Assembly (NCBI GenBank): GCA_021847795.1
Contig: JAJZPZ010000019.1
Coordinates: 1-33,365, forward strand
Direction: 5' to 3'
DNA length: 33,365 nucleotides
Source: Nitrospirota bacterium
GTDB taxonomy: Bacteria; Nitrospirota; Thermodesulfovibrionia; Thermodesulfovibrionales; Dissulfurispiraceae
Positions 1 to 30,415 of the stretch are shown in pieces. Position 1 is the stretch's first letter; every line of letters begins with the position of its first letter. The position numbers and the translations under genes are program-made. The notes under the pieces are model-generated. The model worked only from the letters and a program-made list of their open reading frames with translations, did no database searches and was not told the DNA's origin.

Positions 1-324
1 GTTGCGGTCTGAGCCGTAAATGAGATCGTTCCCCGTATCTCCTGATGCCAGGTCTCCTTTTTCGTTGATCCCCTGTGCGACTTCTCCATTGGCTATTAAG
101 GTTTCCCTGTCTCCATAGTTCTCTCCGAACAACTGATCATCTCCCGGTACTGCAAGTATCACATCTCCGCCTGCACCCCCTTCGATATGGTCATTGGCAG
201 CGGTGTCGCCAATAAGATCAGCAGTACGATTCGGATTCTGGTCGCCCACGATGGTGTTGGTTGTTACGGGATCAGCAGGCGCATCGAGTGGCAAACGCAT
301 AGGGTCAGACTCACTTTTAGACAT
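1..324 (-). CDS. RTX / hemolysin-type calcium-binding protein, N-terminal part (runs off window)
   Basis: An open frame of 108 codons starts at ATG 324 and continues past the left edge. The translation has glycine- and aspartate-rich RTX-like segments (GGAGGDVILAVPGDDQLFGE near residues 45-65, and GDTGNDLIYGS near the end). These resemble the GGxGxD calcium-binding nonapeptides of type I-secreted proteins. No signal peptide is visible, as expected for type I substrates with a C-terminal secretion signal. An AAAGGAG sequence lies 9 nt before the ATG, inside the last codons of the upstream transposase gene. The start overlaps the transposase stop by 8 nt, and the first eight or so codons lie in the inverted repeat of that mobile element, so the 5' end may be recent. 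A second ATG at codon 9 (300) is an alternative start. Family call from repeats only. Confidence 0.6.
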   Translation of the reverse strand, partial: MSKSESDPMRLPLDAPADPVTTNTIVGDQNPNRTADLIGDTAANDHIEGGAGGDVILAVPGDDQLFGENYGDRETLIANGEVAQGINEKGDLASGDTGNDLIYGSDRN

Positions 325-327
325 TTG
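301..327 (+). repeat. inverted repeat, gene-3' end of element 1
   Basis: It pairs with the reverse complement of 1288-1314 (22/27). It contains the transposase stop codon (319-317) and the proposed ATG of the RTX gene (324-322). Confidence 0.65.
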
Positions 328-1261
328 CTTTCACTCCTTTCAGATAATCAACTACGCGTTCTATCTCTCCTGTGGAACTCGCCCTCTCTTTTAAATGTCT
401 CGTCACTACCATCGGGTCCTTTCTCATATACTCCGCCACTTCCCTGTTTTTGTAGCCGTATTCGCCCGCCACAAGACTGATCATCTTTTTTGCCGCAGTC
501 AGCCGCCGAGCTTTGCCTTTTTGCCGTAGTTCTTTCAGACTTACCCCATAGATTTCCTCAACCACTCGTGCTATCTCTGGAAGGCTATATGCCCTTGTCC
601 TCTTCCGTCCCTTAATGGTGCCGCCACTCTTTTCCCTCACTCTTTCAACAAACTCCTCATCTCCTAGTATCCTCTGATCCACGGTGGCATAAATATCCTC
701 TTTCTTGATAGCGACGGTCATGTCACCCATAAACTTACGGTACAGCTTGCGTGCAGCAGCATTGTCTTCCGCAAACATCCGCAGTGCACTATCGGTATCC
801 ACCAGTGGGCCCCTGTCAGACCTGCCGGCATAGCTGCCATGGCTGCTCCACTCATAGTCTGCAGCTGTTACTGCTATTTTCGCCCTTACCGGGTTGAGGT
901 GAATATATTTAAGGAGGGTCAGGAGATACTCATCCCGGTTACAGAGAATAGCTTTGTATCTGCCCTGAAAGAGATGCCCGACTGTCCGGTACTTTCTGTT
1001 GTAATAAATCGTGTAACTTTGGCTGATGCCCTGCAATATTTTCGATAAAGGGGCTTTGCCCGTCTCTATAAGCATATGTACATGATTGCTCATCAGAACA
1101 TACGCATAGAGAGAAAAGCCGTGTTTTTCCTTATATTTGGCCACAGTCTCCAAATACCTTATAAAATCATCCTCCTGCCTGAATATTTTTTGCCGCTGGT
1201 TACCACGAGTGATTACGTGATAAAGAGCACCTTCAAATTCTATTCTCGTTTTCCGCGCCAT
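317..1261 (-). CDS. REP-associated tyrosine transposase-like protein (Y1_Tnp) with DnaA_C-like C-terminus
   Basis: 314 aa. The N-terminal Y1/HUH nuclease domain (about residues 1-135) begins MARKTRIEFEGALYHVITRG. It shows the HUH pair H60-V-H62 (MSNHVHMLIET) and the catalytic tyrosine Y119 in KYIHLNPVRA, the RAYT-type arrangement for single-strand cleavage through a 5'-phosphotyrosine. The last 90 or so residues (ARVVEEIYGVSLKEL, then a helical region ending MVVTRHLKE) resemble the DnaA C-terminal / TrpR-like DNA-binding fold. The protein is intact, and all catalytic residues match the second copy at 8576. AGGAG lies 16 nt upstream of the ATG, so the ribosome site is weak. It is encoded inside the inverted-repeat element and overlaps the downstream RTX gene by 8 nt. 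The C-terminal domain call is from pattern only. Confidence 0.85.
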   Translation of the reverse strand: MARKTRIEFEGALYHVITRGNQRQKIFRQEDDFIRYLETVAKYKEKHGFSLYAYVLMSNHVHMLIETGKAPLSKILQGISQSYTIYYNRKYRTVGHLFQGRYKAILCNRDEYLLTLLKYIHLNPVRAKIAVTAADYEWSSHGSYAGRSDRGPLVDTDSALRMFAEDNAAARKLYRKFMGDMTVAIKKEDIYATVDQRILGDEEFVERVREKSGGTIKGRKRTRAYSLPEIARVVEEIYGVSLKELRQKGKARRLTAAKKMISLVAGEYGYKNREVAEYMRKDPMVVTRHLKERASSTGEIERVVDYLKGVKANV

Positions 1262-4795: not shown

Positions 4796-6406
4796 ATGAG
4801 CGATGAACACAAAACAAAAAGGGAGTTGATACAGGAACTCTGCGAGTTGCGGCGGCGCAATGAGGAACTTGAAATCCTGAAAGCTGAAATCACTCGCGCC
4901 AATCTTCTTCTGCGCAGCAACGAGAAACGCTACAAATATTTCACCAGCCTTACTTCGGACTATGTCTATTCGTGCATACGCGCCAAGGACACTTCCTACA
5001 GGATAGATTGGATGACCGGCGCTTTTGAAAAGGTCACCAGCTATACCACTGAGGAACTGATAAGGACAGGGTGCTGGGTTAATTTTGTCCACCCCGAAGA
5101 CAGAGTCCGGGTACAGAAATATCTGCTGGACCTTAAGCCCCAGCAGACAGGTTCCTGCGAGTTCAGGATCATCCGCAAGGACTCCGGTATCAGCTGGCTG
5201 CGGGATTGCAGCCTGTGCATATCCGACGAGGAGCGCCCCGGTTATTACAGACTCTTCGGCGCCTCCGAAGACATCACTGAACAGAAATGGACCCAAATGC
5301 AGCTGGAATTCAAGAACACCATACTTTCCACCCAGCAGGAGGCCTCACTCGACGGCATCCTGGTGGTAAACCGCTATGGCAGGATTTTGTCCTGCAACAA
5401 GCGGTTTATAGAAATGTGGGGCATTCCTCCTGATGTCCTTGAATCGAAGGCCGATGGGCATGCCCTGGACCATGTTCTTCATAAGCTCGCAGACCCCGCC
5501 GGATTCCTTGAGCGTGTAACATACCTGTACCGGCAGACTTCTGAAACCAGCCGGGAAGAGATTGAACTGGCTGACGGCAGAATTTTTGACCGTTACTCTG
5601 CGCCGATAATCGACGAAGACAAGAAGTATCATGGCCGGGTCTGGTATTTCAGGGACATCTCGGACCGCAAACAGATGGAGGAAGAGCACCTGAGGGTCAG
5701 GAAATTAGAATCAATCACCACCCTTTCCAAGGGTATAGCCCATGACTTCAACAATTTTCTCACTTCAATACTCGGATACATCTCTCTTTCAAAGGCGTCC
5801 CTGCCCCCTGAAGACACGCTCTGCAGCTATCTGACCATTGCAGAGAATTCATGCATCAAAGCGAAAGAGCTGGTGCAGCAACTGGGCATGCTGGCCAAAA
5901 GCGGGGATTCCGCAAAAAGAGTTATTCCTACTGCCCGGCTTCTAAAAGCTTCCGTAGCCCACCTGTTCCTTGAACCAAAATGGAAGCTCACACTGTCGGC
6001 CCCGGATGACCTGTGGTCCGTTGAGGCGGATGAAAATGAGCTGCACAGAGTAGTCGGGGAACTCGTCAAAAATGCCTGCGAGGCAATGCCTGAAGGCGGA
6101 GCAATAGACCTGCGTGCAGAGAATATAATTGTCGGTCCGCAGCACATGCTTCCCTTGAAAGAAGGCCCCTTTATAAGAATGTCCGTAACAGACCACGGCG
6201 AGGGCATTGAAAAAAAGAATTTAGCGAAGATATTCGAGCCCTATTTTACGACAAAGAGAATGGATTCCAAGAGCGGGGTCGGACTCGGGCTTTCCGTCTG
6301 CTACTCTGCGGTCAAGGAACACAAGGGGATCATACTTGCAGAATCCGAACCCGGCAAAGGCGCCGCCATCCACATCTACCTCCCCGCTGTGAAAAGCAAA
6401 TCCTAA
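4796..6406 (+). CDS. PAS-PAS sensor histidine kinase
   Basis: 536 aa, soluble, with no transmembrane segment. A short coiled-coil start (residues 5-40) is followed by a PAS domain of the PAS_3 type (about 45-165: DWMTGAFEKVTSYTTEEL, FVHPEDR, PAC end LFGASEDITEQK). A second PAS domain spans about 175-292 (DGILVVNRYGRILSCNKRF, PAC end YFRDISDRKQ). The transmitter has the phospho-acceptor H316 in GIAHDFNNFLTSILG, N box ELVKNACEAMPEGG (N426), G1 DHGEGI (D466), IFEPYFTTK, and G2 GVGLGLS. The HDFNN form is typical of NtrB/hybrid-like kinases. No receiver domain is attached and no response regulator lies nearby, so its partner must be elsewhere. The ATG lies 14 nt after the likely transcript start, with only a weak AAGGTG. 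Confidence 0.9.
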   Translation: MSDEHKTKRELIQELCELRRRNEELEILKAEITRANLLLRSNEKRYKYFTSLTSDYVYSCIRAKDTSYRIDWMTGAFEKVTSYTTEELIRTGCWVNFVHPEDRVRVQKYLLDLKPQQTGSCEFRIIRKDSGISWLRDCSLCISDEERPGYYRLFGASEDITEQKWTQMQLEFKNTILSTQQEASLDGILVVNRYGRILSCNKRFIEMWGIPPDVLESKADGHALDHVLHKLADPAGFLERVTYLYRQTSETSREEIELADGRIFDRYSAPIIDEDKKYHGRVWYFRDISDRKQMEEEHLRVRKLESITTLSKGIAHDFNNFLTSILGYISLSKASLPPEDTLCSYLTIAENSCIKAKELVQQLGMLAKSGDSAKRVIPTARLLKASVAHLFLEPKWKLTLSAPDDLWSVEADENELHRVVGELVKNACEAMPEGGAIDLRAENIIVGPQHMLPLKEGPFIRMSVTDHGEGIEKKNLAKIFEPYFTTKRMDSKSGVGLGLSVCYSAVKEHKGIILAESEPGKGAAIHIYLPAVKSKS

Positions 6407-6407
6407 G

Positions 6408-6540
6408 CTCTAATATCTAAACTCTAAACAATATCTGCATTCAAAATTCAAAGGCTCCGAACACGTTTCGAATTTGTTTGGAATTTGGCGCTTGGAACTT
6501 GGGATTTGTTTCGGATTTAGAATTTCGAATTTGTATTTCA
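6408..6540. repeat. heptad-phased intergenic element (longest example)
   Basis: 133 nt can be read as 19 consecutive 7-nt words in one register. Examples are CTCTAAT and CTCTAAA on the left, a run of four TTGGNNN words in 6478-6505, and GAATTTC then GAATTTG at 6520-6533. The left part is rich in TAAA/TTCAAA and the right part in their complements (TTTAG, GAATTTG), giving an imperfect hairpin. It starts just after the kinase stop codon and ends close to the vorB -35 box. It shares a 13-nt word (ATTTCGAATTTGT) with the element at 21550-21619. Confidence 0.75.
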
Positions 6541-6542
6541 TC

Positions 6543-6571
6543 TTGTTCCTTTTCCCGTATCCTGTTATAAT
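6543..6571 (+). promoter_or_regulatory. sigma70-type promoter of vorB, probably leaderless
   Basis: TTGTTC (6543-6548), 17-nt spacer, TATAAT (6566-6571) with an extended -10 TGT. The -10 ends 7 nt before the ATG at 6579, so transcription should begin at or one base before the start codon. No Shine-Dalgarno is present. Confidence 0.65.
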
Positions 6572-6578
6572 TTCGTTC

Positions 6579-7628
6579 ATGAAGAAAATCCTGCTGAAGG
6601 GAAATGAGGCCATTGCTGAAGCTGCCATCCGGGCTGAATGCAGGTTCTACGCAGGCTACCCCATAACCCCCCAGAACGAGATCCCCGAATACATGTCGTG
6701 GCGGATGCCCGAAGTCGGCGGCACCTTCCTCCAGGCAGAGAGCGAGACAGCGGCAGTAAACATGGTATACGGGGCATCAGCCTGCGGGGCGCGCGCAATG
6801 ACCTCTTCAAGCAGTCCCGGGATAAGCCTGAAGCAGGAAGGCATCTCCTTTCTCGCAGGGGCGGAGCTTCCTGCAGTCATTGTGAATATGCAACGGGGCG
6901 GGCCGGGCCTTGGGAACATCTCTGCAAGCCAGGCGGATTACTTCCAGGCCGTAAAAGGCGGGGGGCATGGTGATTACAGGCTCCTGGTGTATGCTCCCTT
7001 CACTGTCCAGGAACTCTGGGACCTGACCATGCTCGCCTTTGACAAGGCCGACGAATACAGGACCCCCGTCATGCTGCTCGGCGATGCGATACTCGGACAG
7101 ATGATGGAACCCTGCATCCCGACCCCTTATGTAAAACCGGCCCTGCCTGAAAAAACATGGGCACTGACAGGCTGCAAGGGAAGACAGCCCAATGTCATAA
7201 AGACCCTGTTCATGGGCGAGGGAGAACTGGAGCAGAGGAACTTCCTCCTCCAGGAAAAATACAGGACCCTGAGGGACAGGGAGGTGCGGTTTCAAACCTA
7301 TGACACGGACGATGCGGAGTTCATCGTGATCGCCTTCGGCATCGCAGCGCGGGTTGCCATAACCGTTGTCAGGAAAATGCGGAGCGAAGGGCGCAGGATC
7401 GGCTTGTTCAGGCCCATAACGCTCTACCCCTTCCCTGAGCAGGCCATCAGTGGGCTTTCGGGGGACAGAAGAAAACTCATCACCGTGGAATTAAATGCAG
7501 GCCAGATGGTTGAGGATGTAAAACTGGCAGTCAACGGCAGGTCGGAAGTTCTTTTCTACGGCAGGCCCGGCGGCGCGATAATCACACCGGAAGAACTCTA
7601 CGAGAAGCTCTCGGAATTAACGCGATAA
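6579..7628 (+). CDS. vorB: 2-oxoacid:ferredoxin oxidoreductase alpha subunit, VorB type
   Basis: 349 aa from ATG 6579 (MKKILLKGNEAIAEAAIRAE). It matches 3-methyl-2-oxobutanoate / 2-oxoglutarate:ferredoxin oxidoreductase alpha subunits, which oxidatively decarboxylate 2-oxoacids with CoA and ferredoxin. Visible marks are GYPITPQNEIPEYM at residues 28-41, the AESETAAVNMVYGAS region, QRGGPGLGN, and the C-terminal transketolase-like domain (RPITLYPFPEQAI). The length is normal for the family and the gene looks intact. The frame stays open upstream to 6474, but those codons lie in a repeat element and the promoter overlaps them, so 6579 is preferred. The TPP-binding beta subunit, gamma subunit and ferredoxin-like subunit are not next to it. 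Confidence 0.85.
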   Translation: MKKILLKGNEAIAEAAIRAECRFYAGYPITPQNEIPEYMSWRMPEVGGTFLQAESETAAVNMVYGASACGARAMTSSSSPGISLKQEGISFLAGAELPAVIVNMQRGGPGLGNISASQADYFQAVKGGGHGDYRLLVYAPFTVQELWDLTMLAFDKADEYRTPVMLLGDAILGQMMEPCIPTPYVKPALPEKTWALTGCKGRQPNVIKTLFMGEGELEQRNFLLQEKYRTLRDREVRFQTYDTDDAEFIVIAFGIAARVAITVVRKMRSEGRRIGLFRPITLYPFPEQAISGLSGDRRKLITVELNAGQMVEDVKLAVNGRSEVLFYGRPGGAIITPEELYEKLSELTR

Positions 7629-7807: not shown

Positions 7808-8197
7808 ATGAAACACAAGTGGCGAGTTCTCTACTATGAGACAGCCGATGGGGCCTGCCCGGTGCAGCAGTTTATCGATACACGCAAGAGCCGGGATCAG
7901 GCAAAGATATTCAGTTGGTTGACTCTTTTGGAAGAGAAAGGGCCTAACCTGCCAAGGCCCTATGCAGATATCCTCGGAGATGGGATTCATGAGCTGAGAG
8001 TGAAGCTTGCCGGTGATCAGGTTCGTATACTTTACTTCTTCTGTTATAGGGAATTCATTGTTCTTAGCCATGCATTCGTAAAGCGCGCAAGCGCAGTGCC
8101 ATCATCTGAGATCAAAAGAGCGCAGCAGTTCCGGGATGACTTTCTCGCCCGGGTTGATGAGAGGAAAATCAGGGAGGGATTTCATGAGAAGCTTTAG
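7808..8197 (+). CDS. higB: type II toxin, RelE/HigB superfamily (phage Gp49-like)
   Basis: 129 aa. It matches the Gp49-like (DUF891) branch of the RelE/ParE/HigB toxins, usually ribosome-dependent mRNA interferases. Features are VLYYETADGACPVQQFID at the start, then the core DILGDGIHELRVKLAGDQVRILYFF, where R and K residues of the beta-sheet line the active site in the family, then FVLSHAFVKR-like IVLSHAFVKRAS. It precedes and overlaps its antitoxin by 14 nt (toxin-first order, as in HigBA). The ATG sits immediately after its own promoter with no Shine-Dalgarno. It appears intact. RNA cleavage activity is inferred from the family. Confidence 0.85.
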   Translation: MKHKWRVLYYETADGACPVQQFIDTRKSRDQAKIFSWLTLLEEKGPNLPRPYADILGDGIHELRVKLAGDQVRILYFFCYREFIVLSHAFVKRASAVPSSEIKRAQQFRDDFLARVDERKIREGFHEKL

Positions 8198-8489
8198 ACA
8201 GCATTTGAAAGAAAAATTGAAGGACGAGAGGTTCAGGCAACTCTACGAGGAAGAACGCCAGCTTGCTGAGCTCTCACTCAAAATACTTGATACCAGGGAA
8301 CATTTGGGGCTTTCTCAGGCAGAAGTTGCAAAGAGAGCAAAAGTCACTCAACAACAGATGTCAAAAGTAGAAAACGGAATCAACTGTAATATTTCCACCT
8401 TCCTCAAGGTATGCAATGCATTGGGCATAAAGATTGATCTTGAGGCTCCAAGAATTCGCCCCTTTGGTCGAAGGACAGCAAGAGCATAA
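8184..8489 (+). CDS. higA: XRE-family antitoxin of the HigBA pair
   Basis: 101 aa, starting at ATG 8184 inside the end of the toxin gene with AGGGAGG 6-7 nt upstream. The N-terminal 30 residues are charged and helical (HLKEKLKDERFRQLYEEE) and probably contact the toxin. A Cro/C1 helix-turn-helix follows (about residues 33-84: LGLSQAEVAKRAKVTQQQMS, then KVENG). It neutralises HigB and very likely represses the promoter at 7773-7802 through the palindrome there. The preferred start gives the 14-nt overlap typical of translationally coupled toxin-antitoxin pairs. Confidence 0.9.
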   Translation: MRSFRQHLKEKLKDERFRQLYEEERQLAELSLKILDTREHLGLSQAEVAKRAKVTQQQMSKVENGINCNISTFLKVCNALGIKIDLEAPRIRPFGRRTARA

Positions 8490-8575: not shown

Positions 8576-9553
8576 ATGGCAAGACCTTTGAGAATCCAAT
8601 ATCCTGGGGCGGTTTATCACGTTACAAGCCGGGGAAACGAGCGCAGGGAAATATTCAGGGAGGATAAAGATAGGCAGCAATTCGTCCATATGCTGTCAAA
8701 GTCGCTGAAAATTTATGCTGTAAAGCTCCGAAGTTATGTTTTGATGAATAACCATTATCATTTCTTGGTTGAGACGCCCCTCGGCAATCTTGGAGAATTC
8801 ATGAGGCATTTCAATGTTTCCTATACCGGCTTTTATAACAGGAAATACACAAGATCGGGCCATCTTTATCAGGGAAGATACACGAGCATTCTTGTGGACA
8901 AAGACGAGTATCTGTCCATTGTGTCCCGATACATTCATTTAAACCCCGTGCGTGTAGAGTCGATGAGATCAAAGACGAGCGAGGAGAAATTCAAATATTT
9001 AGAAGAATATCAATGGAGCAGTCTCGTCGGGTATATTAGCAAGCGGAAGGAAAAGATGGTTGACTATGGGCTGGTTCTTTCAGAATATGGTGGAGATACT
9101 GCCGGAGGAAGGGGCGAATACAAGAAACGTATTATTCAAGACATCAGTGAAGGACTGGAAATCAAGAAAGATATTCTTGGGCAAAGCATTCTTGGCAACG
9201 ATAAGTTCATAAGCTGGGTAAAGAATATTTTTGTTAAAGGGACTGAGGACCGGGAGAGTCCCGGCCATCGGGAACTAAAGCGGTACAGGGCTGAAGAGGA
9301 TATTGTTCGTGTGATAGAGAAGGTATCCGGCGAATCATTTGATGCGATAAGAACCTCCAGACATAGACTTAGGACTGCTGCAATGGATATTCTCTATCGG
9401 GTGGGGGGGCTGAAAGGAATCGAGATTGGCAGGATATTTAATGTTGATTACAGCACCGTAAGTCAGGGGCGAAAACGGTTAGTGGAAAAAATGGAGAGGG
9501 ACGGAAATTTAAGGAGTCTTGTAGAGCGCATCGAAGAGGAATTGTCAAAATGA
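8576..9553 (+). CDS. REP-associated tyrosine transposase-like protein (Y1_Tnp) with DnaA_C-like C-terminus
   Basis: 325 aa. The Y1/HUH nuclease domain starts MARPLRIQYPGAVYHVTSRG, with HUH pair H60-Y-H62 (MNNHYHFLVET) and catalytic Y119 in RYIHLNPVR, at exactly the residue numbers seen in the first copy. About residues 240-322 resemble the DnaA C-terminal domain (GLKGIEIGRIFNVDYSTVSQ echoes the DnaA pattern of IGxxFxxRDHSTV). The middle (residues 135-235) is charged and poorly conserved. The gene is intact, and its stop codon is inside the right inverted repeat. Expected role: single-strand DNA cleavage and transfer of its own element or of related hairpin repeats. Mobility is inferred. Confidence 0.85.
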   Translation: MARPLRIQYPGAVYHVTSRGNERREIFREDKDRQQFVHMLSKSLKIYAVKLRSYVLMNNHYHFLVETPLGNLGEFMRHFNVSYTGFYNRKYTRSGHLYQGRYTSILVDKDEYLSIVSRYIHLNPVRVESMRSKTSEEKFKYLEEYQWSSLVGYISKRKEKMVDYGLVLSEYGGDTAGGRGEYKKRIIQDISEGLEIKKDILGQSILGNDKFISWVKNIFVKGTEDRESPGHRELKRYRAEEDIVRVIEKVSGESFDAIRTSRHRLRTAAMDILYRVGGLKGIEIGRIFNVDYSTVSQGRKRLVEKMERDGNLRSLVERIEEELSK

Positions 9554-11056: not shown

Positions 11057-13531
11057 TTACAATTTTGCCGCGATCTTCTCGATAATGTAGTTTTCCAGAA
11101 CATCTCCGATCTTGATATCATTGAAGTTCTCTATCGTAATACCGCACTCATATCCGGCCTGGGCTTCCTTGATATCGTCTTTAAATCTCTTCAACGAGCC
11201 CAGCTTTCCCTCATATACGACGATGTTTTCCCTGATGACCCTGATCCCCTCACTGTTGCGGCTGATCATGCCGTCAAGCACATAGCAGCCTGCAATCGTG
11301 CCGAGCCTTGAAACCTGGAACGTCTGCCTGACTTCGGCCCTGCCCAGGATCTTTTCCTTAAGCGTGGGTTCCAGGAGCCCTTCCAGCGCCTTCTTTACAT
11401 CCTCTATGGCTTCGTAGATGATGTTGTAAAGCCTGATGTCAACGCCCTCTTTCTCGGCAATCTGCGAGGCCTTCAGTTCAGGGCGGACATTAAAGCCGAT
11501 GATAATGGCATTGGAAGCTGTAGCCAGCATTACGTCCGACTCGTTTATACCGCCTACAGAGGCATGGATGACCCTTACCTTCACCTCGGTGTGGGTGATC
11601 CCCTCAAAGGCCTGCCTGATGGCCTCCACAGAGCCCTGGACATCACCTTTGAGCACAATGTTCAGTTCTTTTATCTGGCCTTCCTTGATTTTTGCATATA
11701 ATTCATCGAGCGTCAGTTTCCTGTGTTTCGCTATCTCGGCAAGCCGCTGTTTCTGCAGGCGCGCCAGGGCGATCTGCCGGGCCTTACGTTCATCTTCAAC
11801 GCTGATGAACACATCGCCTGCTGCCGGCACTTCGGAAAATCCGATTACCTCCACCGGGGTCGACGGGCCTGCTTCGGGGATCTTCTTCCCCGTATCATCG
11901 ATCAGCGCCCTCACTCTTCCGGATGTGGTCCCTGCCACATAGGCGTCTCCTATTTTCAGCGTTCCAGACTGGATCAGCACGGTTGCTACAGGCCCCCGGC
12001 CCCTGTCCAGCTTTGCTTCGATAATCGTCCCCTTTGCAAGTTTGTGGGGGTTTGCCTTGAGCTCCATCACTTCCGCCTGGAGCAGTATCATCTCGAGCAG
12101 ATGCTCTATACCTGTCCTCTTTTTTGCGGAGACCTCAACAAAAATGTTCTGGCCGCCCCATTCTTCCGACACGACACCGCGCTCTGCCAGTTCGTTCTTG
12201 ACCCGTGTAAGGTTCGCTTCGGGTTTATCCACCTTGTTTATCGCCACGACAATAGGCACGTTGGCGGCCTTTGAGTGGTCGATTGCTTCTACTGTCTGGG
12301 GCATAACCCCGTCATCCGCGGCAACGACAAGCACGACAATGTCCGTGACCTTCGCTCCCCTTGCCCTCAGCGCGGTAAAGGCCTCATGGCCCGGCGTATC
12401 GAGAAACGCGATGTCCTTGCCCTGAAGAGAGACCTTGTAAGCGCCGATGTGCTGGGTGATGCCTCCGGCCTCGGTCTCAGTGACCTTTGTTTCCCTGATG
12501 GCGTCCAGCAAAGAGGTTTTCCCGTGGTCGACATGGCCCATGATGGTAACAACAGGGGGCCTGTGGATAAGGCTTCCGGCCTCCTCTGCAGCCTCCTCAA
12601 CAACATCCAGCTGTTCAGCGCTTACCGATTCCACCTTCACGCCGAAACTGTCGGCAACCAGGATGGCGGCATCCATATCAACAGGCTGATTGACTGTCGC
12701 CATGTACCCCAGTTCCATAAGTTTCTTGATGACATCCGATATCTTCAGGCCTATCATCTCGGCAAAAACCTTTACCGTTGTCCCCTCTTCCAGCTTTATG
12801 GATTTCTTCCTCGGCGCAGTTATCTGGGGCTGCTGCGGCTCCATCTTTCTGAATCTGTCCTTCGGCCTCTTCGTCGACTTCTGGTCCGCCCATTTTTTGG
12901 GCTCTATTTTCTTGATTGCCTGGAATGCCTTCTGCATTCCCGGCTTGACCTTGATCTTCTCGACTTTCTCGACCTCTATTTCCTTCTTGAATCTGTCAGG
13001 CAACTTGAGTTCGTCGTCTTCTTCATGGACAGGCAGTATGGCTTCCAGCGGCTCGATCTCTGCAACGGGTGCGCTTGCACCGGCTGCGGGCATCTCCTCC
13101 GGCTTTGCCGTTTCAACAGGTTTTGTTTCCGCAGGCCTTGCCTCGACAGGTCGCGCTGCAGCAGGCTTTGCCTCGCCTGCCTTCGGCGGCTGCTCTTTTC
13201 GTGCCGGTTCGGCAGGCTTTGCGATTTCCTCCTCTTTCTTTGCCGGTTTTGCCTCCGGCCTCGTTTCCATGCGGGCCCCGGGTTTCGCTTCCGCCTTTTC
13301 CGGTACTTTCCTGGGGGCTGCCTGTTCAGGGGCCTTCCTGACAGGCTTCGGCGCCGTCTGCCGGCTGAACGCAGATTTGACCTTATCCGCCTCTTCAGCG
13401 CTGAGCTTCACGTTTGTCGTCCCCTTCTTGTATTCGATACCCCTGATCTTTCCAAGTTCTTTGACGACCTCGGTAGCTTTAACTCCCAATTCTTTTGCCA
13501 GCTCAGTGCTCTTTATTTCATTATTGGACAT
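11057..13531 (-). CDS. infB: translation initiation factor IF-2
   Basis: 824 aa GTPase that delivers initiator fMet-tRNA to the 30S subunit. It has an N-terminal IF2_N domain (residues 1-55), a low-complexity Ala/Pro/Glu/Lys linker (about 58-165), a second IF2_N-like part (about 245-305), then the G domain: G1 GHVDHGKT (332-339), G3 DTPGH (378-382), G4 NKVD (432-435). Domains II, III and IV (C2) follow to the end. The start at ATG 13531 has GGAGGGTGAG upstream. Unlike the common nusA-infB arrangement, the upstream neighbour is the divergent rpmB. The repetitive linker yields long antisense open frames that are not genes. Confidence 0.97.
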
Positions 13532-13560
13532 CTATATCTCACCCTCCGATTTTTCCTTAA

Positions 13561-13634
13561 GTGGGAAGTGAGCGGTAAGAAGTGAGAAGTAAAATCTTTT
13601 ACTGCTCACTTTTTACTCCCCACCTCTTACTTCT
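13561..13634. repeat. heptad-phased hairpin element, infB-rpmB divergent spacer
   Basis: The left arm has GAAGTGA, GCGGTAA, then repeats (13565-13592). The right arm has TTTTACT, GCTCACT and related words (13597-13631), all in steps of 7. The inner stem 13581-13594 / 13597-13610 pairs 13 of 14 bp over a 2-nt turn. An outer stem pairs GTGGGAAGT with ACTCCCCAC. It falls in the 5' untranslated region of infB. Confidence 0.8.
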
Positions 13635-13656
13635 CTTTTATTATAACTTATTTTAC

Positions 13657-13685
13657 TTGTAACATTACTCCTGAAATGTTATCAT
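13657..13685 (+). promoter_or_regulatory. promoter of rpmB
   Basis: TTGTAA (13657-13662), 17-nt spacer, TATCAT (13680-13685). The predicted start is near 13692, about 30 nt before the ATG, leaving room for the AAAGGAGGT Shine-Dalgarno. Confidence 0.5.
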
Positions 13686-14001: not shown

Positions 14002-14448
14002 ATGGAAACCTCCGGTTCAATCCTAGCTTCCCTTTTAAAAGACCTCGGCATAGAGGACAGGGTCAGGCTGGATTCCCTGCAAAGAGAATGGACCACCCTT
14101 TTCCCGGCGCCGCTTTCGCTCCATACCTGTCCCGTTGACATCAAGAACGGGGAACTGGCAGTGAATGTGGACTCTCCTGCATGGCTTCAGCAGTTGAAGT
14201 TCTTCAAGCAGGACATGATAAAGAAGCTCCGGGGACACCAGGTAACCGAGATCAGGTTCAAACACGGCAGGATCTTTAAACCCCGGCAGAATGCTCCAGG
14301 GGACAAGGACGCCGCCGTACAAACAACAAAGAAGATCCAGGACTCCGACATCGCATGGATCGACCGCACCATCTCTGATATACAGGACCCGGAACTGAAA
14401 GAAGCTCTGCGGAAGGCCATAACGAAAACAGTAATGCGTAATGGGTGA
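14002..14448 (+). CDS. dciA: DUF721 protein, probable DciA-type helicase loader
   Basis: 148 aa from ATG 14002. The N-terminal half matches the DUF721/DciA domain: a start helix (LASLLKDLGI), W29-centred segment REWTTLFPAPLSLHTCPVDI, then GELAVNVDSPAWLQQLKFFK and VTEIRFKHG. DciA is thought to assist loading of the DnaB replicative helicase in bacteria lacking DnaC. A longer start at 13960 would translate the repeat element and is rejected. No Shine-Dalgarno is evident. The last five codons (VMRNG and stop) are made of the heptad repeat at 14431, so the natural C-terminus may have been altered. Convergent with clpX. Confidence 0.75.
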   Translation: METSGSILASLLKDLGIEDRVRLDSLQREWTTLFPAPLSLHTCPVDIKNGELAVNVDSPAWLQQLKFFKQDMIKKLRGHQVTEIRFKHGRIFKPRQNAPGDKDAAVQTTKKIQDSDIAWIDRTISDIQDPELKEALRKAITKTVMRNG

Positions 14449-14516
14449 TGAGTAAAAGCTTTTTATCAGTGCGAGGATTTAACTCATCACTGATTACTCA
14501 TCACTCGTCACTGATT
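14431..14516. repeat. heptad-phased hairpin element, dciA-clpX convergent spacer
   Basis: The left arm has GTAATGC, GTAATGG and two further words (14431-14458). The right arm has ACTCATC, ACTGATT and three further words (14482-14516). All are in steps of 7. GTGATGAGT (14445-14453) pairs perfectly with ACTCATCAC (14482-14490). It overlaps the dciA 3' end and reaches the clpX stop. It may act as a terminator for both convergent genes. Confidence 0.8.
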
Positions 14517-21549: not shown

Positions 21550-21619
21550 TAAATCCTAAATCCCAATGCCTAAATCCTAAACAATTTAGAATTTAGAGTT
21601 TGGGATTTCGAATTTGTCG
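21550..21619. repeat. heptad-phased hairpin element, rpmJ-rpsM spacer
   Basis: Ten words in a single register: TAAATCC occurs at 21550, 21557 and 21571, and the right side is a series beginning TTT (TTTAGAA, TTTAGAG and others, 21585-21619). AAATCCCAA (21558-21566) pairs perfectly with TTGGGATTT (21600-21608). The inner stem 21570-21581 / 21585-21596 matches 11/12. Confidence 0.85.
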
Positions 21620-22765: not shown

Positions 22766-22786
22766 TGTATTCTTTTGCTATAACGC

Positions 22787-22853
22787 AGAGCGTTTATCGT
22801 GCAGATCGGACTCTCTTAACCCCGCTACGCTCTACGCTGTACGCTGTACGCTT
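22787..22853. repeat. heptad-phased array, secY-map spacer
   Basis: Four perfect-phase words TACGCTC, TACGCTG (twice) and TACGCTT occupy 22826-22853. AGAGCGT at 22787-22793 is complementary to ACGCTCT at 22827-22833. The array runs into the secY stop codon (22854-22852). Confidence 0.75.
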
Positions 22854-25149: not shown

Positions 25150-25164
25150 GCCTCCTAATTACGT

Positions 25165-25236
25165 AATTTATGATTGCTGATTACAGATTGCAGATTTAAG
25201 GAAATCATAAAGCAAAAATCTGAAATCTAAAATTCG
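25165..25236. repeat. heptad-phased hairpin element, rpsE-rplR spacer
   Basis: The left arm has four words of GATTNNN (25172-25199). The right arm has five words beginning AAA (AAATCAT, AAATCTG and others, 25202-25236). TTTATGATT (25167-25175) pairs perfectly with AATCATAAA (25203-25211). The last words include the rplR stop codon and its final codons. Confidence 0.85.
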
Positions 25237-30334: not shown

Positions 30335-30415
30335 CCGTAATGCGTCATTCGTAATGCGTGATCTGTAAAGACGTTTTCCTCAAACACATTACGCATCACG
30401 GATTACTCATTACGG
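30335..30415. repeat. heptad-phased hairpin element, rplB-rpsS spacer
   Basis: The left arm has CGTAATG, CGTCATT and three further words (30336-30370). The right arm has CATTACG, CATCACG and two further words (30387-30414), all in register. CCGTAATG (30335-30342) and CATTACGG (30408-30415) close the hairpin. It lies within the transcribed operon. Confidence 0.85.

Follow-up and report, generated by a model that had tools for sequence, protein, structure and literature searches.

A probable copy of a dispersed, heptad-built palindromic repeat in the kinase-vorB spacer of a Nitrospirota genome

What is the A/T-rich spacer that separates a histidine-kinase gene from vorB in this Nitrospirota genome, and what is the unit behind its seven-base texture? 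The window, that is the whole stretch of 33,365 nucleotides that was analysed, comprises the entire contig C99 of a 3.54-Mb genome in 273 contigs. Inspection of the sequence confirmed a spacer at 6408-6540, which an earlier note had read as 19 uninterrupted heptads in a single register, running from the kinase stop codon almost to the -35 box of vorB. A different unit emerged from the analysis. With a probability of about 80%, the spacer belongs, as a diverged copy, to a family of dispersed repeats of ~135-155 nt, here called R1, which are non-coding and imperfectly palindromic and have spread by copying. The features of the window are collected in Table 1.

To characterize the periodicity of the spacer, identity at different lags was compared with that of dinucleotide shuffles. 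Identity at lag 7 was 0.508 versus 0.274 ± 0.040 (z 5.9), a value that none of 2000 shuffles attained. Lag 14 was weakly raised (z 1.9), lags 21, 28 and 35 were not raised, and an increase was again seen at lags 25 and 32, which correspond to 7n+4 (z 3.4 and 3.8). This combination of raised and flat lags demonstrates a phase slip of four (or minus three) within the spacer. In addition, the column agreement of 19 heptads in one register was 0.414 compared with 0.410 after shuffling, and 942 of 2000 shuffles were as good; phase slip and column agreement together reject the single register. The four consecutive TTGGNNN words that had been pointed out are present at 6478-6505, and 6478-6512 was the only stretch found to hold a register of seven (column agreement 0.771 versus 0.532, 0 of 2000 shuffles).

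The earlier note had staked its reading on two tests, the frequency of the 13-mer ATTTCGAATTTGT, described as common to 6522-6534 and 21605-21617, and a period-7 peak in Fourier analysis. The second failed, as no such peak was detected and 144 of 500 shuffles reached the same power. The 13-mer was indeed found at both sites and far above chance, with eight occurrences in the 3.54-Mb genome, where an order-2 Markov model predicts 0.12 and the reversed pattern has none. Reuse of words between sites was much stronger than claimed: seven of the eight copies lie within matches to R1, and the remaining one, at 21605, belongs to an element of the rpmJ-rpsM gap that is built of the same words. What had been missed is the imperfect palindromy of the spacer: its left arm begins inside the kinase gene, so that the last kinase codons, including the stop codon TAA at 6404-6406, fall within this arm. 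The relevant unit is a ~140-nt palindromic element with a word order conserved in the family, not a string of 19 heptads.

Membership in this family was established by similarity searches. BLAST of the spacer against its own genome gave 70 matches at E ≤ 10 and, in a separate scoring, 22 at E ≤ 1e-5, the spacer itself included; the best non-self match showed 75% identity over ~140 nt. Of 27 extracted copies from this genome, 25, the window copy among them, were aligned (L170 and L191 were left out, the latter being without right arm), and a sequence-only model of R1 was built on this alignment. With the model, 155 matches at E ≤ 0.01 were detected in the genome. The 150 of these that were listed correspond to at least 76 places on at least 60 contigs; 67 of the 76 are at least 90 nt long, and 70 of the 76 listed places were matched more than once, as expected for a palindrome matched on both strands. 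The best match scored 119.4 bits, compared with 84.6 bits for the window copy; among the short matches close to the model's limit, some may be due to chance. Among the 30 best copies, 28 are located between called genes, one inside an open frame and one is unresolved. According to crude gene calls, the gaps occupied by these 28 are tandem in 20 cases, divergent in 5 and convergent in 3; since background gaps of 100-600 nt are also mostly tandem (108, versus 53 divergent and 33 convergent), no strong orientation preference is claimed. Four R1 copies (L174, L175, L179 and L246) were seen nested in further mirrored sequence of the type ACCACAGAG ... CTCTGTGG.

Table 1. Coordinates of the genes, repeat elements and heptad arrays of the window.
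Feature	Position	Strand	Basis or remark
RAYT-like gene, candidate mover	317..1261	-	PF01797 61.6 bits; NF047646 77.9 bits (cut-off 80)
PAS / histidine-kinase gene, upstream of the spacer	4796..6406	+	Pfam PAS, HATPase_c; HisKA just under cut-off
R1 copy (heptad-palindrome family)	6396..6545	+	Model match 84.6 bits, E 7.8e-24
Left arm of predicted hairpin, CTAAA-type heptads	6396..6431	+	RNA fold, sequence
Right arm of predicted hairpin, TTTGG/TTTAG-type heptads, includes the TTGGNNN run 6478-6505	6474..6509	+	RNA fold; column agreement
Additional heptads beyond predicted stem, with ATTTCGAATTTGT at 6522-6534	6510..6540	+	Sequence
vorB, downstream of the spacer	6579..7628	+	NCBIfam NF005507 VorB, 532.8 bits
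Second RAYT-like gene, candidate mover	8576..9553	+	PF01797 49.6 bits; NF047646 66.4 bits (cut-off 80)
Heptad palindrome AAGTGAG / CTCACTT, upstream of infB	13559..13635		Tandem repeats; fold 13525-13660 -35.3 kcal/mol
Heptad palindrome of GTAATGC / ACTCATC words, adjoining clpX	14430..14512		Tandem repeats; fold -33.7 kcal/mol
Second element with the same words as R1, rpmJ-rpsM gap	21550..21617		Inherited in sister species L009
Weaker heptad array of TACGCTG words, map-secY	22770..22852		Tandem repeats, fold; reverse-complement score low
Heptad palindrome of GATTRCA words, rplR-rpsE	25159..25233		L009: different words in the same gap
Heptad palindrome of CGTAATGCGTCAT words, rplB-rpsS	30335..30415		Tandem repeats; fold -36.1 kcal/mol

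The alignment of 25 copies revealed a common anatomy. R1 elements are imperfect palindromes with the ends AAATCC...GGATTTG. On the left side the consensus reads AAATCC-TAAATCC-(heptads)-TAAACAA, followed by the inner stretch CAAATGCTCC; then come the apex AAACCGTTTCGAATTTCGGTCATT and, on the right side, TTGTTTAGGATTT-(heptads)-GGATTTG. The outer arms consist of heptads of the form AA-NNN-C-T/G and their reverse complement, to which the inner arms and the partly conserved apex are joined. In the left-arm heptads AA and C are nearly invariant, and the NNN centre is limited to a small number of triplets (ATC, ATT, TAT, GCA, ACT and others), 23 of the 64 possible ones occurring in 271 heptads of a scan that itself demanded the AA...C frame. 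The three letters vary as words: at left column 20 their total correlation was 1.79 bits versus 0.55 bits, a level that was not reached in 500 shuffles. The same discreteness was detected at columns 13 and 154 (0 of 500 shuffles each), 27 (2 of 500) and 147 (12 of 500), and was absent at right-arm column 140, where 500 of 500 shuffles were as high.

Two sets of loci document the history of single copies, one of which was duplicated recently and another inherited vertically. The copies L163 (contig C50) and L164 (contig C191) are identical over ~100 nt, including an insertion that is absent from most copies. Their flanks are unrelated, and two clusters of changes in the left half swap words; these features directly attest to recent copying combined with block change. 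In the rpmJ-rpsM gap, an orthologous element was found in the window and in the sister species L009; identical Y1_Tnp hits suggest that L009 and G001 are one genome. No element was found in this gap in the relatives L015, L016 and L018, and others have heptads of other words there. For the window copy no clean empty site was found; G001 has vorB without the element but with another upstream gene.

The distribution of R1 is patchy. At E ≤ 1e-4, matches were detected in 11 of 40 genomes, the own genome counted, and their bulk fell to the own genome (79), G001 (77) and G002 (29). At E ≤ 1e-8, 46 of 295 Nitrospirota genomes and 37 of 136 genera were positive; among these 295 genomes, members of other classes carry matches of up to 100 bits, whereas most of those sampled from the own taxonomic family gave no match. 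In distant copies the outer words are retained, usually together with the AAACAA/TTGTTT step, and the apex differs. Plasmid and phage collections gave no R1 match, and viral contigs had no exact match to the strict apex pattern.

Taken together, the copies of R1 in this Nitrospirota and some of its relatives probably go back to the spread of a non-coding element by copying. Copies would insert as units into intergenic gaps, where the harm would be small, and the heptad lattice would permit word exchange or slippage between copies; in this way words would come to differ as whole blocks with the AA...C skeleton kept.

How such copies would be moved leads to the RAYT-like genes of the window. According to this proposal, which describes a mechanism inside the copying explanation and not an alternative to it, R1 is a REP-like element whose palindrome serves as single-stranded hairpin substrate of host RAYTs. 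Two window genes match the RAYT model, though under its cut-off, and the genome holds 13 Y1_Tnp genes, the highest number of the 30 genomes compared. Y1_Tnp was present in 39 of 46 family-positive versus 156 of 249 family-negative genomes (p 0.004, uncorrected for kinship and with a PF01797 count that includes ordinary IS200 transposases). Across 37 genomes Y1_Tnp genes per Mb correlated with heptad density (rho 0.47, p 0.003), compared with 0.09 for a DDE-transposase control. However, the association dropped to r 0.36 (p 0.065) after correction for kinship, and GC content tracks heptad density more strongly (rho -0.52). Seven of the 46 family-positive genomes gave no RAYT hit, including G259, in which R1 has at least 10 matches, and the family alignment has no GTAG or CGTC tag column. 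Direct linkage was not supported either, as arrays do not flank RAYT genes: against an expectation of 1.5, none of the 13 genes had a heptad array at a distance of 200 bp or less, the nearest lying at 457 bp. The sample of own DNA used here was partly picked for RAYT genes and 13-mer sites, which makes the array background high and the flanking test conservative. RAYT-type single-strand transposases are thus the best candidate for the mover, plausible and unproven, and we hold this identification tentatively, at clearly less than even odds. In the product of the RAYT-like gene at 320-1261 (minus strand), the C-terminal residues 229-282 were observed to match a DnaA helix-turn-helix weakly, at 19.6 bits and below the cut-off.

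Heptad arrays of other words were found in the same genome and in its relatives. In 277 kb of the own genome, for which apart from the window repeats were no selection criterion, 11 regions were periodic at lag 7 compared with 0-2 for every other lag between 4 and 15. Gap segments of the own genome that scored at least 12, from a sample partly picked for repeats, numbered 29 at lag 7, 15 at lag 14 and 0-4 at each of the other lags from 4 to 15. In the rpoA loci of 37 Nitrospirota, 89 segments were found at lag 7, 61 at lag 14, 31 at lag 6, 21 at lag 9 and 2-13 at the others. Fifteen relatives each had 0-4 gap arrays at a score of at least 12 in ~26-80 kb, lengths too short to rank the genomes, and the mean lag-7 excess over all gaps, a measure that is too diluted, was 0.020 in the own genome and -0.013 to 0.014 in the fifteen. 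Arrays were mirrored more often than in controls: of 64 arrays of the own genome compared with their surroundings, 50 scored at least 14 against the reverse complement, 23 against the reversed sequence and 11 against the complement. In the relatives the contrast was weaker (59, 54 and 18 of 91, respectively), probably because low-complexity A/T words match in reverse too.

In the ribosomal operons of relatives, the gaps are either empty or hold palindromes of other words. The rplN-rplX gap measures 7 nt in the window versus 87 nt in L009, and the secY-map gap 93 nt in L011 versus 21 nt in L012. As side observations, the hairpin apices of other-word palindromes in the S10-spc-alpha operon gaps of L009 and relatives are, by eye, often AAGGAAYT or ATGGAAT. 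A second family, of GTAACRA/GTGACGA heptads, was noticed in the own genome (L060, L066, L074 and L077), and three of its loci (L060, L074 and L077) have the stretch CTTTGTCGTTAGTCTTTAACT in common.

Such arrays could also arise separately at each site through 7-nt polymerase slippage, with template switching to mirror the arms, and words in common would then reflect bias and not copying. This proposal draws on the prevalence of heptamers and the polymerase-footprint idea as given in excerpts of the literature (PMC4679880, PMC4692102), on the differing words that relatives carry in one and the same gap and on the phase slips within the window copy. It is hard to reconcile with the ordered words and the apex, partly conserved and non-periodic, that R1 copies at unlinked sites have in common, and with the pair of copies that is identical over ~100 nt. 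We therefore consider slippage as the origin of R1 unlikely, though it may account for the length of the arms and for the other vocabularies.

A more far-reaching form of the copying explanation can be envisaged, to which we give a similarly small chance. Here the elements would be mobile palindromes in a heptad "alphabet", in which the AA...C skeleton holds the lattice and three-letter words are swapped as blocks. Several independent vocabularies would coexist and replace each other in the operon gaps of related species, and a single-strand enzyme, RAYT or another, would read the lattice and not the words.

To judge whether the hairpin is selected as RNA, for intercistronic processing, attenuation or termination, folding of the window copy and covariation among copies were analysed. 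The RNA fold of the window copy (-36.5 kcal/mol), in which the two arms of Table 1 pair, had a z of -3.3, and 1 of 200 shuffles was as good; read-through from the kinase gene would place a long RNA hairpin at the transcript's 3' end. Many operons likewise have the element between a stop codon and the next start. The DNA fold was unexceptional (z -1.06, 29 of 200 shuffles). Against a conserved RNA device, outer arms paired at 78.8% of positions within their own copies versus 81.2% when arms were swapped between copies, and 993 of 1000 swaps were as good or better. As swapped arms pair equally well, the pairing stems from the shared skeleton and is not maintained copy by copy. RNAalifold supported 8 pairs only, one of them with a double change; compensatory change is thus unsupported on the outer stem, the inner stem having been judged by eye. 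Furthermore, no terminator-like site (stem plus T run) was detected in 6300-6650, the window gave no Rfam match at gathering scores, and the element is missing from orthologous gaps in relatives. An RNA function is accordingly improbable.

The R1 copy stops a few bases 5' of promoter-like boxes of vorB. Among these, a TATAAT at 6566-6571 ends 7 nt 5' of the vorB ATG and lies outside the element, which is why the copy is not taken as a vorB regulator. That the heptads are protein sites at 7-bp spacing upstream of the promoter, as their end just ahead of these boxes could suggest, is highly improbable given at least 75 further R1 places across the genome and the absence of the element upstream in all seven of the relatives' vorB loci viewed (one partly N), of 13. 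In G001 the TATAAT-ATG arrangement is the same without the R1 element, and similar spacing was observed upstream of vorB in several relatives; judged from this spacing, the vorB transcript may have no leader or a very short one. Downstream of vorB, at 7808-8489, a Gp49-like gene (PF05973) is followed by an open reading frame assigned by eye as helix-turn-helix-like. The two, which adjoin a RAYT gene, look like a toxin-antitoxin pair.

The preference of bacteria for intergenic seven-base repeats is a long-standing question, for which slippage is the prevailing guess. According to the portions of two papers that cite Mrazek 2007, long simple repeats of most bacterial genomes are built from heptamers more often than from any other unit, and polymerase slippage over a 7-nt footprint is the origin proposed for them (PMC4679880, PMC4692102). 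Seen here are the copying of whole elements, the mirrored arms, the block changes of words and the replacement of words in the operon gaps of related genomes, through which slippage and mobile-element views become separable. A search of open-licence papers returned no report of such heptad palindromes in Nitrospirota, which is weak support for novelty. The results also call for caution, as spacers of this kind should not be taken for promoter or regulator sites of a neighbouring gene.

With REP, BIME and REPIN elements, R1 shares numerous scattered intergenic palindromes and the presence of RAYT-like genes; REP elements are tied to RAYT genes in the sections available of PMC2817692 and PMC8266576. 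REPs, however, measure 20-40 bp (PMC3733652, in part), carry a GTAG/CGTC tag and flank a RAYT gene, and R1, at ~135-155 nt, shows none of these. In size, tag and RAYT flanking R1 fails the defining REP features that were tested.

Among heptamer repeats, cyanobacterial STRR heptamers are intergenic like the TAACTGA type. The TAACTGA repeats of Beggiatoaceae are described, in the part of PMC4679880 at hand, as intergenic heptamers that also occur in ribosomal-protein operons and near start codons. They repeat a single word in direct orientation, with only one indirect repeat reported there (PMC4679880), whereas R1 is degenerate and mirrored. TAACTGA-type heptads were also seen upstream of rpsM in three Poribacteria loci (L054-L056), as in Beggiatoaceae and cyanobacteria. 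Multicopy intergenic sequences of Geobacter metallireducens include families that carry four or five tandem heptanucleotides, with some pairs on opposite strands, but have other words and are presented, in the passages available, as putative regulator sites and RNA elements (PMC2700814).

The closest known system is that of the heterogeneous, often inverted heptamer repeats of Xanthomonas. The GGGAATC repeats are, in the excerpts of PMC4692102, heterogeneous heptamers with fixed and free positions, mainly intergenic, and are paired in convergent orientation in 70 cases in Xcc and 75 in Xac. The pairs mostly adjoin the same genes in the two species and differ in length and sequence; their function is given in these excerpts as unresolved, and Calothrix heptanucleotides are mentioned as well (PMC4692102). 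The GGGAATC repeats form one word family, rich in G and with the potential for quadruplexes (PMC4692102, same excerpts), whereas R1 is A/T-rich, a palindrome with a common apex and a lexicon of words, in a genome with several vocabularies. A GGGANTN unit with quadruplex potential was not found in R1, whose consensus is without G-tracts and whose unit is AA-NNN-C-T/G. Nevertheless, R1 and GGGAATC are both heterogeneous, intergenic and often inverted heptamers, and the gap-located period-7 enrichment of the Xanthomonas type is likewise present in the own genome. R1 thus behaves as a dispersed palindromic repeat and as a heptamer repeat together.
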